64,000 nucleotides of DNA from Faecalibacterium sp. An122. GTDB taxonomy: Bacteria > Bacillota > Clostridia > Oscillospirales > Ruminococcaceae. The notes beneath the pieces were generated by a model. That model did no database searches. It was not told the DNA's origin and was given only the letters and a program-made list of their open reading frames with translations. How positions within the stretch are numbered: the first letter of the stretch is position 1; each line of letters begins with the position of its first letter. The stretch spans positions 1 through 64,000 of the forward strand of contig NZ_NFLL01000010.1 in assembly GCF_002160895.1 (NCBI RefSeq), given 5' to 3'. Of this stretch, positions 5,671 through 9,993 are shown piece by piece. Both the position numbers and the translations under genes were made by a program.

Positions 5671-6474
5671 ATGGGGAATATTCGCGCTGCATTTTTCGAT
5701 ATTGACGGCACCCTGCTGAGTTTTGCCACCCATCAGGTGCCCCCTTCCACCCTGCGGGCCCTGAAAGAGATGAAGGCCGCCGGCATCAAGCTGTTCATTG
5801 CCAGCGGGCGGCCTCCCTTCTACATGAAAGGGATGGAGGAAACCCTGGGTGTGCCCTTTGACGGCTATGTGCTGACCAACGGCCAGTGCTGCACCGACGG
5901 GGACCTGAACCCCTTCTACATCCAGGCCCTGCCCAAGGAGTCGGTGCCTGCCCTGCTGCGGTGGCTGGAAGCCCACCCTGACACCCTCTGCGCCTTCTGC
6001 GAGGACGAATACGTCTACCTGAACCGCCCGGCGGATCTGGTGGAGAAACGGTGCGAGGACGCCCATCTGAACCCGCCCCGGCACCCGGTGGGCGACCCGG
6101 CCCGGGCTCTGACCCATACCACCTACCAGCTGAATCTGTACATGCCCCCTGAGATGGACGCCCCCTTTGCCGAGGCGGTGCCGGGCTATCGGGCGGTGCG
6201 GTGGAACCCGGTTTTTGCGGATGTGATCCCCGCCGACGGCGGCAAGGCCGAGGGCCTGGCCCGGATGATGGCCCGCCACGGCCTCACCGCCGACCAGTGC
6301 ATCGCATTTGGAGACGGCGGCAACGACATTGAGATGCTGCGGGCCGCCGGTACCGGCGTGGCCATGGGCAACGCCTCCCCCACTGTCCAGGCGGCCGCCG
6401 ACTACGTCACCGATACGGTGGACCGGGACGGCATCTGGAAGGCTGCGGTGCATTTCGGACTGATTCAGGAATAA
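5671..6474 (+). CDS. Cof-type HAD-IIB phosphatase
   Basis: 267-residue Cof/HAD-IIB hydrolase. Motif I is FFDIDGTLLSF, motif II FIASGRPPFYM, and motif IV FGDGGNDIEMLRAAGTGVAMGNA; the alpha/beta C2 cap sits between motifs II and III. Family members dephosphorylate small sugar phosphates or flavin and pyridoxal phosphates. ATG 5671 is chosen with AGGTGA (5654-5659) as RBS; an in-frame GTG at 5656 lies inside that RBS. Adjacent HAD genes of different cap class suggest a small phosphatase operon, possibly metabolite-repair or catabolic. Confidence 0.88.
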   Translation: MGNIRAAFFDIDGTLLSFATHQVPPSTLRALKEMKAAGIKLFIASGRPPFYMKGMEETLGVPFDGYVLTNGQCCTDGDLNPFYIQALPKESVPALLRWLEAHPDTLCAFCEDEYVYLNRPADLVEKRCEDAHLNPPRHPVGDPARALTHTTYQLNLYMPPEMDAPFAEAVPGYRAVRWNPVFADVIPADGGKAEGLARMMARHGLTADQCIAFGDGGNDIEMLRAAGTGVAMGNASPTVQAAADYVTDTVDRDGIWKAAVHFGLIQE

Positions 6475-6630
6475 TTCCTGAAAAGTGATGCAGTCACAGA
6501 CAAACGGCAGAAAATCGGGTATACTAGGACCATCGAAAGCGAGATGCTTCGAAACCAAAAACCAAACGAAACGGCCGCGCCGTGCGGCCCCCACGATACA
6601 ACAAAGACAAACCAAAAAGGAGAGACTACC

Positions 6631-7014
6631 ATGAAAGAGTTGAAGTTCTACGTTTGCAGCCACTGCGGCAACCTGGTCGAGATGGTCCACAGCTCGGGCG
6701 TTCCCATGATCTGCTGCGGCGAGGCCATGAAGGAACTAGTCCCCAACACCGTGGACGCTGCCGGTGAGAAGCACAAGCCGGTGGTCACCGTGGACGGCAG
6801 CACCGTCACCGTGGTGGTCGGCTCTGTGGCACACCCCATGACCGACGCTCACCTGATCCAGTGGGTGGTTCTGGAGACCGAGCAGGGCGTCCAGCGCAAG
6901 GAGCTGGCTGCCAACGCCGAGCCCAAGGCCGTCTTCACCCTGGCCGAGGGTGACAAGGCTGTGGCCGCTTACGCCTACTGCAACCTGCACGGCCTGTGGA
7001 AGACCGAGGTCTGA
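6631..7014 (+). CDS. dfx: Desulfoferrodoxin / 2Fe superoxide reductase
   Basis: 127-residue superoxide reductase, which reduces superoxide to hydrogen peroxide without releasing oxygen and is typical of anaerobes. The N-terminal desulforedoxin-like Fe centre is Cys9, Cys12, Cys28, Cys29 (CSHC...CC). The catalytic centre fits His48, His68, His74, Cys117 and His120 (EKHKP, AHPMTDAHLIQWV, YCNLHGLW), the expected four His plus one Cys. ATG 6631 follows AAAAAGGAGAG. It is monocistronic, with a TATACT -10-like box at 6520 and a terminator at 7051. No rubredoxin partner gene lies next to it. Confidence 0.95.
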   Translation: MKELKFYVCSHCGNLVEMVHSSGVPMICCGEAMKELVPNTVDAAGEKHKPVVTVDGSTVTVVVGSVAHPMTDAHLIQWVVLETEQGVQRKELAANAEPKAVFTLAEGDKAVAAYAYCNLHGLWKTEV

Positions 7015-7165: not shown

Positions 7166-9283
7166 TCAGCCCCGGACCATCTTGCCCAGAGCGTTGCGGG
7201 GAAGGGGCTGGTCGGTGAATTCCACCGACGTAATCCGCTTGTAGAGAGGCAGAGACCGGTTGGTCTGGGTCACAAAGGCCCGCACCTCGTCCCGGACGGC
7301 CTCCCGGCAGGAAATCCGGGCGCAGATTTTGCCGTCCTTCTGCTCCACCAGCACCTCCCGCACCGCGGGGTTCCGGCTCAGCAGAGTTTCCAGCTCCTCG
7401 GGGCTGACGTTTTCCCCGCTGGGCAGAATCATCAGGTTGTTTTTCCGCCCGGTGAGGTAGATATAGCCGTCGGCGTCGATGCGGGCCAGGTCTCCGGTGT
7501 GGAACCATCCGTCCCGCAGCACCGCCGCCGTTCCCTCGGGGTCTTTGTAGTAGCCCAGCATGACGGCGTCGCCCTTCATGCACAGCTCGCCGTCCTCCAG
7601 ACGGTATTCCATGTCCGGGTCCCGCAGGCCCACCGAGGACAGATGGGCGGCGTCCTGGGCGCTGTTCCAGCCGCCGTCCCCCACCGTCTCGGTGAGGCCG
7701 TAGGTCTGGATGATGGTAAAGCCCTGGGCGATGAGGTCGGCCAGCATCTGGGGGTCGTACATGGCGGCCCCGCAGGTGAACAGGCGCAGCTTGCCCAGGC
7801 GGGCCCGCTTCCCTTTCATCACATCGTGGTGGATGGATTTCAGGAGGGTGGGCACCACCGCCATGGCGTCGCTGGGCATGGCGGCCAGGTCCCGGTAAAA
7901 GCGCCGCAGATCGGTGCAGAAGTGCACCGCGTTCCCGCTGATGCTCCAGGAAATCAGGCTGCTGAGGGCCGCGATGTGGAACAGGGGCAGGACGCTGAAG
8001 GCGGCGAACTGATAATCCTCCGGCAGGCCAAACTGGTGCCGGACGGTCTCAAAAGGCTCGGTAAACAGCCGCATGGGGGCAAAGAGGTTGCGCTGGCTCA
8101 GCATAACCCCCTTGCTGCGGCCGGTGGTGTCGGAAGTAAAAACGATCAGGGCCAGAGCGTCCTGGTCGGGGCATTCGGTCAGCTCGGCCAGTTCGGTGCA
8201 GCCTGCAAAGGCGTGGATGTCCAGCACCGTGCCCTTATAGTCTGCAAAGGCCGGCTCCCGGTCGGAATAGACGCCGTCCGCCAGCAGGCAGTCCACGTCG
8301 GCCCGGGCCAGCTCATCCGACAGCTGGGCCCAGCTCTTTTCGATGTTCAGGGGGACGGCCACCGCCCCCGCCAGAATGCACCCGAAGATGGCCACCCCGT
8401 AGGCGTAGCCGCTGCGGGCCAGCAGGCCGATGTGACGGCCCTGCACGTCGGGCAGGCTCCGCCGCAGATAACCCACCATCCGGCGGATGTCGGCGGCATA
8501 GTCCCGGTAGGTGACCTCACGGACCCCGCCGGCTTCCTCGTCATACCACCGGACCGCCACCCGCTGGGGCCAGGCGGACTCCATGTTGATGACGTTCTGA
8601 TAGACGGTGGAAATCCAGAAAGTCTGGTCCAGAGACTGCTCCATGGCCTCCCGGGCCCGGGCGGAATCCCGGGCCTCAAAGGCCGCCAGAATCTCCCGGT
8701 ACCAGTGGAGGGCCACCGGCACGCTCTGGCGCCGGGCGTTCTGCCGGTAGGAGGACTGGATGGCGTCGTCGATGATCTGGTAGATCTGCTGCATCATGTT
8801 GCTGCGGGTCAGCCGGGCCAGCATGCAGTGGAACCGGCTGTCCAGCCGGGCAAAGGCGGCCAGATCCGCCTCGGACCGCTCCATCTGGTCCAGTAGCTCC
8901 CGCAGCTGGGCGATTTCGCCGTCGGTGGCCCGGCGGCAGGCGATCTCACAGATGGGCCCCTCCACCATCCGGCGGAAGGTCAGGATGTCCTTCAGGGTTT
9001 CCCGGCCCAGATACAGCATGGGCACCAGCTGGTTCAGGGCGGCCCCGGCCTCGGGACCCCGGATAAAGGAGCCCTCGCCGAAGCGGGTTTCCAGCAGGCC
9101 CAGACCGCTGAGCTTCTGCAGCGCGTTGCGGACGGTCACCCGGCTTACCCCGAACTGGGCGGCCAGTTCATTTTCGGAGGGCAGTTTGTCGCCGGGTTTC
9201 CAGCTGCCGGACAGAATCTGCTGGCGCAGCTGGTCAAAAACCTGCTGGCTGACGCTGCTCTTTACCACTTTTTGAATCGCCAT
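7166..9283 (-). CDS. FadR/GntR transcription regulator fused to acyl-CoA/acyl-AMP ligase
   Basis: 705-residue single open frame joining two complete families. Residues 1-75 are a GntR winged helix (QILSGSWKPGDKLPSENELA, VSRVTVRNAL, FGEGSFI). Residues about 90-225 are an FCD ligand domain (LDSRFHCML, ALHWYREIL). Residues about 230-705 are an ANL adenylating enzyme with TSDTTGRSKG (383-392), YGLTET (528-533), GWFHTGDLARID, YLTGRKNNLMILPSGENVSPEEL and the C-terminal PRNALGKMVRG, whose Lys701 should be the adenylation lysine. The P-loop has Asp385 where Gly is usual, and the FCD domain lacks the usual last His. ATG 9283 is chosen for its AAAGGAG RBS over an in-frame GTG at 9313. It has its own promoter and lies 71 bp downstream of a membrane-protein gene on the same strand. 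Inferred role: a repressor or activator that makes or senses an acyl-AMP/acyl-CoA. Confidence 0.88.
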   Translation of the reverse strand: MAIQKVVKSSVSQQVFDQLRQQILSGSWKPGDKLPSENELAAQFGVSRVTVRNALQKLSGLGLLETRFGEGSFIRGPEAGAALNQLVPMLYLGRETLKDILTFRRMVEGPICEIACRRATDGEIAQLRELLDQMERSEADLAAFARLDSRFHCMLARLTRSNMMQQIYQIIDDAIQSSYRQNARRQSVPVALHWYREILAAFEARDSARAREAMEQSLDQTFWISTVYQNVINMESAWPQRVAVRWYDEEAGGVREVTYRDYAADIRRMVGYLRRSLPDVQGRHIGLLARSGYAYGVAIFGCILAGAVAVPLNIEKSWAQLSDELARADVDCLLADGVYSDREPAFADYKGTVLDIHAFAGCTELAELTECPDQDALALIVFTSDTTGRSKGVMLSQRNLFAPMRLFTEPFETVRHQFGLPEDYQFAAFSVLPLFHIAALSSLISWSISGNAVHFCTDLRRFYRDLAAMPSDAMAVVPTLLKSIHHDVMKGKRARLGKLRLFTCGAAMYDPQMLADLIAQGFTIIQTYGLTETVGDGGWNSAQDAAHLSSVGLRDPDMEYRLEDGELCMKGDAVMLGYYKDPEGTAAVLRDGWFHTGDLARIDADGYIYLTGRKNNLMILPSGENVSPEELETLLSRNPAVREVLVEQKDGKICARISCREAVRDEVRAFVTQTNRSLPLYKRITSVEFTDQPLPRNALGKMVRG

Positions 9284-9317: not shown

Positions 9318-9346
9318 ATTGTAGCATCCGGCCGGCGGTTTTACAA
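9318..9346 (-). promoter_or_regulatory. Promoter and possible operator of the GntR-ligase fusion
   Basis: Minus strand: -35 TTGTAA (9341-9346), 17-bp spacer, -10 TACAAT (9318-9323). The spacer contains the palindrome CCGGCCGG, and the elements themselves form TTGTA...TACAA arms, so an autoregulatory GntR site could overlap the promoter. Confidence 0.55.
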
Positions 9347-9354
9347 TCCGGCTT

Positions 9355-9876
9355 TCACTTTTTGGCTTCGGAGTGGCCTGCGGCGGCGATCTTGTTGCCG
9401 ATGGAGGCGAACAGCAGAGAACCGCCCAGAATGACGGCGCCGCCCACCCAGAAGGTGATCAGCTGGGAGCCGATGATGGCGGGGGTGATCTCCTCAAAGT
9501 TGACGGTGGCCACCGTCAGATAGGCAAAGGCCACGTTGTTGCAGACCACGGGGCAGACGGTGCCGCCCAGGATGATGACGGTGAGGATGACGCCGATGCT
9601 GAGGGCGAATGCACCCAGCAGGCCCATGTAGGGAGCCAGGCCGAAGGTGCCGGCATAAAGGGCCAGCGCTGCCACCAGACCCAGGGTGCCGCCGGCGAAA
9701 ATCATGGGAATGTTCTTCATGTCTGCGCCCAGGGCGAAGAAGAAGATGGTGACGAAGTACAGGGGCCAGCCGGCAATGCCCAGGGCGACGGCGGCCACGT
9801 TGACAATGAAGATCCAGACCAGCACGCTGGCGGTCACGATGACGTGATGACGGTCAGGTTTTTGGAAAATGGACAT
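9355..9876 (-). CDS. DUF1097-like integral membrane protein
   Basis: 173-residue hydrophobic protein with five to six predicted membrane helices (for example VTASVLVWIFIVNVAAVA, IFAGGTLGLVAALALYAG, IGVILTVIILGGTV, LITFWVGGAVILGGSLLF). Length and pattern resemble the DUF1097/YcdZ family, whose function is not settled; transport is a guess. The gene lies 71 bp upstream of the GntR-ligase fusion on the same strand and has its own strong promoter carrying a perfect palindrome. It is therefore the most likely target, or partner, of that regulator. Confidence 0.7.
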   Translation of the reverse strand: MSIFQKPDRHHVIVTASVLVWIFIVNVAAVALGIAGWPLYFVTIFFFALGADMKNIPMIFAGGTLGLVAALALYAGTFGLAPYMGLLGAFALSIGVILTVIILGGTVCPVVCNNVAFAYLTVATVNFEEITPAIIGSQLITFWVGGAVILGGSLLFASIGNKIAAAGHSEAKK

Positions 9877-9941: not shown

Positions 9942-9993
9942 ACCTGTAATACAGGTGCTTCAACAGGATACCATGTATACCTTTCGGTGTCAA
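9942..9993 (-). promoter_or_regulatory. Promoter plus palindromic operator candidate upstream of DUF1097-like gene
   Basis: Minus strand: -35 TTGACA (9988-9993), 17-bp spacer, -10 TATCCT (9965-9970). About 10 bp downstream is a perfect 6-3-6 palindrome, ACCTGT-AAT-ACAGGT (9942-9956), placed where a repressor would block initiation. Its length suits a GntR dimer; the link to the neighbouring GntR-ligase is inference. No gene is seen in 9877-10212. Confidence 0.6.

Follow-up and report, generated by a model that had tools for sequence, protein, structure and literature searches.

A FadR-type regulator joined to a whole acyl ligase in Faecalibacterium, possibly a repressor that senses through a copy of its own pathway's enzyme

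A regulator and a ligase in one frame

The locus studied here raises the question of why a complete transcription factor should be carried in one protein chain with a complete acyl ligase, and whether the enzyme half still serves as a catalyst or has become the sensor of the regulator. The gene lies in a stretch of 64,000 nucleotides from Faecalibacterium sp. An122 (hereafter the window) and occupies positions 7166..9283 of the minus strand as a single open frame, running from an ATG at 9283, with an AGGAG ribosome-binding site 5' of it, to a stop at 7166, with no internal stop; the same frame had been read in an earlier inspection of the letters alone (the sequence-only reading). Pfam analysis of the 705-aa chain identified a GntR winged-helix DNA-binding domain at residues 12-74 (9062..9250; PF00392, 4.9e-23, 81 bits against a cut-off of 27), an FCD effector domain at residues 99-219 (8627..8989; PF07729, 4.9e-23, 82.3 bits, cut-off 24.3), and an AMP-binding domain at residues 238-579 (2.2e-46). 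Because the alignments to CoA-ligase models and to solved ligases extend up to residues 701-705, the ANL ligase domain (residues 238-705; 7169..8572) is whole, and the AMP-binding fold was found over its whole length. That a complete GntR-FCD regulator continues in one frame into a complete ANL ligase, as first proposed, therefore stands on the Pfam matches, the unbroken frame and the end-to-end ligase alignment.

The nearest NCBIfam match of the regulator half is NanR. A structure model of the fusion (mean pLDDT 78.7, pTM 0.62) found its best Foldseek matches among ANL enzymes such as MenE, and, together with the alignment, it places a short, gapless junction between the last FCD helix (residues 207-221) and the first ligase helix (residues 227-236), which is about the point at which stand-alone ligases begin.

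The fusion was present in 13 of 31 Faecalibacterium genomes, and in 11 of these it is complete and free of stops; of the other two copies, one is split across two contigs (G010) and one is truncated by a contig end (G024), and both were excluded from the analysis of selection. Seven loci, ranging from near-identical down to 72% identity, all belong to Faecalibacterium, some of them from chickens judging by their names. Over the 55 pairs of complete fusions, the median dN/dS was 0.165 for residues 1-221 and 0.231 for the ligase, with 0.067 for the HTH, 0.249 for the FCD domain and 0.144 for the junction (residues 222-240), which indicates that both halves are under purifying selection. The 705-residue fusion is, in short, a real gene.

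Outside the genus the same GntR-FCD-ligase architecture was not seen in 396 genomes of the family (E 1e-90), 398 of the phylum (1e-45) and 391 of the class (1e-44), with the best two candidates scored in each genome, nor, among the matches listed, in 119 phylum genomes searched at 1e-22 with up to nine candidates scored; there is overlap among these family, phylum and class sets, and they may have failed to pick up a divergent fusion. No place in 72,556 plasmids covered 80% of the fusion query. When 148 family genomes were searched with the FCD domain, all the matches listed except that of the window were in frames of 459 aa or less. Scripted gene calls came from a simple codon-score method that sets some starts too early.

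Altered sites in the FCD and ligase halves

The metal site of FCD domains consists of an Asp and three His, and is not present in every member of the family. In the fusion the Asp and the first His are retained (DxxFH), and the two later His, presumed metal ligands, are replaced in all 11 complete copies, so that the partial loss of this site suspected from the window alone proved to be general. Other members of the phylum have stand-alone GntR-FCD proteins with 36-42% identity to the regulator half, and the five whose loci were inspected (L143, L067, L145, L144 and L142; 40-42% identical) all retain both of the histidines that the fusion has lost. In the 14 genomes of the genus that carry ligases and no fusion, the best GntR relatives are 27-41% identical.

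The ligase half is changed at two positions. The Gly of the ATP loop (TSG-TTG) is replaced by Asp385 (codon 8129..8131, minus strand; FTSDTTG in the window), a substitution of the usual P-loop residue already picked out in the sequence-only reading and now seen in 13 of 13 fusions. Gly was found in 52 of 53 rows of non-fusion ligases, the remaining row being unread, and in all 30 of a diverse set of ANL loci from the phylum, a comparison used for the ATP loop only as its hinge column misread many rows. At the hinge, where ANL enzymes have Lys or Asp, and where active ones may have Asp, the window has Asn615 (codon 7439..7441, minus strand), and the 12 fusions that could be read show Asn in ten, Gln in one and Asp in one (G005); Lys occupies this position in 52 of the 53 non-fusion rows, and the row that the pattern left unread (G009) was seen to have Lys as well. 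Other signatures of the family are retained: YGLTE (YGxTE), TGD, GR and the C-terminal lysine, noticed at the outset and identified here as Lys701 (codon 7181..7183, minus strand), are present in all 12 fusions that reach these motifs, the copy in L020 being cut before them. In a comparison of 12 of the 13 fusions with 24 chosen stand-alone ligases, 78 of the 110 columns that are at least 95% conserved in the latter are invariant in the fusions.

Since most active-site motifs are retained and the G005 hinge residue is Asp, some activity of the fused ligase may persist. However, the Gly to Asp change and the loss of the hinge Lys, both fixed across the fusions and seen in no paralogue that could be read, point rather to a sensor copy that is retuned or inactive, and we consider it quite likely that catalysis by this half is poor. 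Our inference is that the ligand pocket has been kept and the handling of ATP changed. No paper on ATP-loop mutants of 4-chlorobenzoate CoA ligase was found in the open-access literature, and the effect of the changed Gly is an expected one.

Identity between the fused half and the stand-alone ligases of the genus is 43-57%. A quick tree was built from 64 ligases, leaving out two short pieces and a 34%-identical relative in G010. It groups the 12 fused rows in a single clade (SH-aLRT 100) on a long stem (0.58), and a second clade (also 100) unites the ligase that lies directly behind the fusion in seven genomes with an unlinked ligase in four others. By its sequence, then, the fused ligase is a paralogue of the stand-alone ligases that it presumably controls, and since those paralogues handle the pathway substrate, a copy of one of them is a natural candidate for a new sensor.

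It had been suggested that the fusion would let an enzyme producing acyl-adenylate or acyl-CoA exert direct control over genes. The part of this suggestion that holds up is that the ligase half informs transcription: that it acts as a sensor is, in our estimate, reasonably likely. The role of a working catalyst fares less well, as the two altered positions speak for a sensor that has been retuned or inactivated. A trigger enzyme in the style of BirA, in which the ligase half would be active in the pathway while its occupancy or its adenylate also sets DNA binding, is unlikely in our judgement, even though the retained YGLTE, TGD, GR and Lys701, the purifying selection on the ligase half and the 78 unchanged columns all speak for it. 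An Asp in the ATP loop of every fusion, where the diverse ANL genes have Gly without exception, the loss of the hinge Lys in all 12 fusions read, and the coexistence of plain paralogues in the same genomes argue against such an enzyme.

The operator and its predicted regulon

The fusion is preceded in the same operon by a gene for a small, mostly helical, membrane-type protein (9355..9876, minus strand) with a conserved GGTVCPxxCNN stretch. This protein had no Pfam or NCBIfam match, and could possibly be a transporter of the pathway substrate. Among the 13 fusion genomes the gene precedes the fusion in 12 and is lacking in G005. Hexamers located by eye place the promoter of the operon (TTGACA, 17 bases, TATCCT) at 9965..9993 and a second, conserved promoter-like element (TTGTAA, 17 bases, TACAAT) just before the fusion at 9318..9346, both on the minus strand. 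Comparison of loci and genome scans pointed to a putative operator, the palindrome ACCTGTANTACAGGT, at 9942..9956, which is the single match in the window at two mismatches or fewer (shuffle mean 0.04). A TTGACA/TATnnT promoter followed some 10 bases on by the palindrome was found in every one of the 12 loci with the small upstream gene; the sequence is exact in ten, diverged in G007 and changed symmetrically in both arms in G024. The fusion gene of G005, on the other hand, has no operator of its own, which counts against the proposal. The site predicted at these 12 operon heads is a GT-N3-AC palindrome, and sites of the FadR subfamily typically have three bases between GT and AC (PMC4494728).

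Allowing one mismatch at most, a scan of the 31 genomes returned 34 places in 13 genomes, 21 of them exact. The raw number of sites is no evidence in itself, because a reversed control pattern matched more places (47). Placement is more telling: 26 of the 34 lie at promoters of the fusion operon, of a locus with ligase and acyl carrier protein (ACP) genes, or of an unlinked third ligase, and these comprise 20 of the 21 exact places and 6 of the 13 with one mismatch. In the 27 such loci the operator is present once in 26, the reversed control in one. The third ligase lies behind the fusion in seven genomes, and where it is unlinked it has its own operator in four of four. In none of the 14 genomes of the genus with ligases and no fusion was the operator found at one mismatch or fewer; against this, four of the 14 show other palindromes at the ligase promoter, that of G003 adjoining the -10 box. 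As fusion and operator are both confined to one branch of the genus, their co-occurrence amounts to roughly one event; stronger evidence than presence is that the operator sits at two or three unlinked promoters in each genome. We conclude that the predicted regulon very probably comprises the third ligase and the ligase/ACP genes as well as the fusion operon. At the ligase locus of G006 and G010, where the site is upstream of the -35 box, the regulatory sign may differ.

In the fusion genomes the stand-alone ligases occur in three settings: next to an acyl carrier protein gene, immediately behind the fusion, or by themselves. The ligase/ACP cluster is conserved in Faecalibacterium (L045:4701-13276, with counterparts in L043, L046-L062, L100-L105 and L109) and consists of a single or paired ligase gene, the acyl carrier protein gene and then a gene for an HxxxDG-motif protein, for which Pfam gives no more than a condensation match below threshold (E 0.01). 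These genes are divergent from those of an acyltransferase, a protein with no assignment and a GT4 glycosyltransferase, and the cluster perhaps encodes an acylated glycoconjugate pathway.

The presence of the acyl carrier protein gene in the predicted regulon, along with the docking surface of ANL enzymes that load carriers, would suit a ligase half that docks acyl-ACP or free ACP and reports carrier loading without binding the free acid; given that the motifs of the small-molecule pocket are conserved, we regard this as rather improbable. Still more doubtful is a ligase half that stands outside regulation altogether, an independent enzyme that simply shares its polypeptide with the regulator. 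Fusions of neighbouring genes are common and another ligase does follow the fusion in seven genomes, but the fixed changes of the ligase half occur in no readable paralogue, the FCD histidines are lost only in the fusion, and no unfused form was found among the 31 Faecalibacterium genomes. The frameshift, stop or assembly join against which the sequence-only reading had warned is ruled out by 11 complete, stop-free copies in separate genomes with dN/dS well below 1, and the chance of an artefact of assembly or frame is negligible.

Further evidence on the operator comes from the stand-alone homologues, whose gene neighbours are of sugar-acid type. In L143 the exact operator (6071-6085) lies behind a TTGACA-N17-TATAAT promoter and just before the regulator gene (6137-6826), and this homologue may be taken as a living stand-in for the unfused ancestor of the fusion regulator. 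L067 has AGTTGTATTACAACT 54 bases before the regulator gene and L145 has AGTTGTAATACAGGT 162 bases before it. The palindrome core TGTANTACA is thus present within 200 bases upstream in three of the five loci, with a chance of 0.3-0.9% in each. The other two loci, with no site in that interval, weigh against the pattern: L144 has near-matches of the operator before a TRAP transporter operon about 4.7 kb away, and L142 has one near-match about 900 bases upstream. The core also turned up, by chance or otherwise, in one of three control ligase loci from other genera (L146), which is likewise a point against, and of 20 chosen genomes that were scanned only two (G940 and G961) had the exact operator. 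As a separate observation, the L143 regulator adjoins dehydratase and DHDPS-type genes.

A proposed mechanism and its known relatives

With somewhat better than even confidence, and from sequence comparison, we favour a FadR-type repressor in which a retuned copy of a ligase from its own pathway has taken the place of the FCD sensor. A dimer of the fusion would bind ACCTGTANTACAGGT just after the -10 box, repressing the third ligase and the ligase/carrier-protein genes along with the operon that encodes it. Its ligase domain would bind the acyl substrate of the pathway, probably with AMP or as the acyl-adenylate, with little or no turnover of ATP, and its closing on substrate or adenylate, passed through the nearly linker-free junction, would change DNA binding so that the dimer lets go. 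The pathway would thus be made when its substrate is present, while the second promoter could keep a basal level of the regulator. The protein would descend from a regulator that, with its DNA site intact, lost the ligand site of its FCD domain and came to control acyl ligases and a carrier protein; the full sequence of steps, in which it lost the small-molecule site, kept the operator, gained a new regulon and came to sense through a retuned paralogue of the ligases it controls, we propose tentatively, at close to an even chance.

The proposed sensor has relatives in principle. The fusion resembles the FadR/FCD subfamily in its winged helix and FCD domain, in a GT-N3-AC palindrome beside the promoter and in homologues, 40-42% identical, with similar sites; it differs in adding a whole ligase and in having lost the FCD metal histidines, and it is predicted to act on acyl ligases and a carrier protein, whereas the FadR/FCD homologues sit among sugar-acid-type genes. 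With ANL acyl-CoA ligases (MenE, FadD13 and feruloyl-CoA synthetase) it shares a whole domain, the fold and most motifs, but it departs from them in the Asp at the ATP-loop Gly position, in the missing hinge Lys and in being joined to a regulator. NadR and ROK proteins are further cases of enzyme folds used as sensors by regulators, and BirA, with an adenylate as effector, offers an analogy for the fusion. BirA resembles the fusion in pairing a DNA-binding domain with an adenylating enzyme, although its ligase family is unrelated, its enzyme is active and it has no FCD domain, and MocR/GabR, a GntR subfamily, combines a GntR winged helix and an enzyme-like domain in a single protein, although the latter is a PLP aminotransferase fold directly behind the HTH, with neither FCD domain nor ANL ligase. 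Neither a biotin protein ligase catalytic domain nor a PLP aminotransferase-like domain was among the Pfam matches of the fusion. BzdR joins an HTH to a shikimate-kinase-like domain, and loss of the ancestral activity was essential there (PMC3602430). BzdR and the fusion are alike in that an enzyme fold has become the effector domain of a repressor, with activity loss suspected in the fusion; they are unlike in that the fusion has another enzyme fold, added behind a complete GntR-FCD regulator, and in that close paralogues of the fused enzyme are its predicted targets.

The initial claim that no regulator of this design had been described is in agreement with the open-access literature, in which we found neither an ANL-fold sensor in a transcription factor nor a GntR-ligase fusion, although such agreement is not proof; what is not new is the principle, since enzyme folds as regulator sensors are already known in BzdR, MocR and BirA. 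We know of no ANL-fold sensor domain in any transcription factor, and the fusion, if our reading is true, would be the first as far as is known. How regulators gain new ligands has mostly been guessed from finished products. Here the stand-alone regulators, the plain paralogues and the fusion are all extant for comparison, and, because stand-alone relatives with similar operators and unfused paralogues coexist with the fusion, both origin and mechanism are open to tests on one domain at a time. A cell may use a retired enzyme as a sensor of its own pathway. Should the ligase half indeed sense acyl substrates, natural biosensors could be drawn from ANL enzymes, and its ligand would show which substrate is used by a carrier-protein pathway of this common gut genus that has apparently not been described.

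The other eight of the 34 places returned by the one-mismatch scan were not counted as regulon. Three lie in terminator-like hairpins (G021 C4, G000 C12 and G022 C4), two lie inside genes (G000 C17 and G020 C11) and one is intergenic (G020 C23). A promoter-like one-mismatch place in G001 C1 (L093:4695-4709), between a phosphoglycerate-mutase-type gene and a gene resembling that of ribosomal protein L21, was set aside as it points at no called gene. Near the fusion of G010, on the opposite strand, there are a further ligase (34% identical) and a carrier-protein-like gene (L072:3578-8052). G005 has, in place of the small upstream gene, a region (L073:3496-8104) with genes for an asparaginase, a TMEM164-like protein and a weak peptidase M50 match, and also for a pyridine nucleotide oxidoreductase and a Crp-type regulator. 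The same genome has, on C172, a one-mismatch operator beside a promoter-like element and before an alpha/beta hydrolase gene (L094:1911-2891); it too was left out of the count, and the hydrolase is perhaps an extra member of the regulon.
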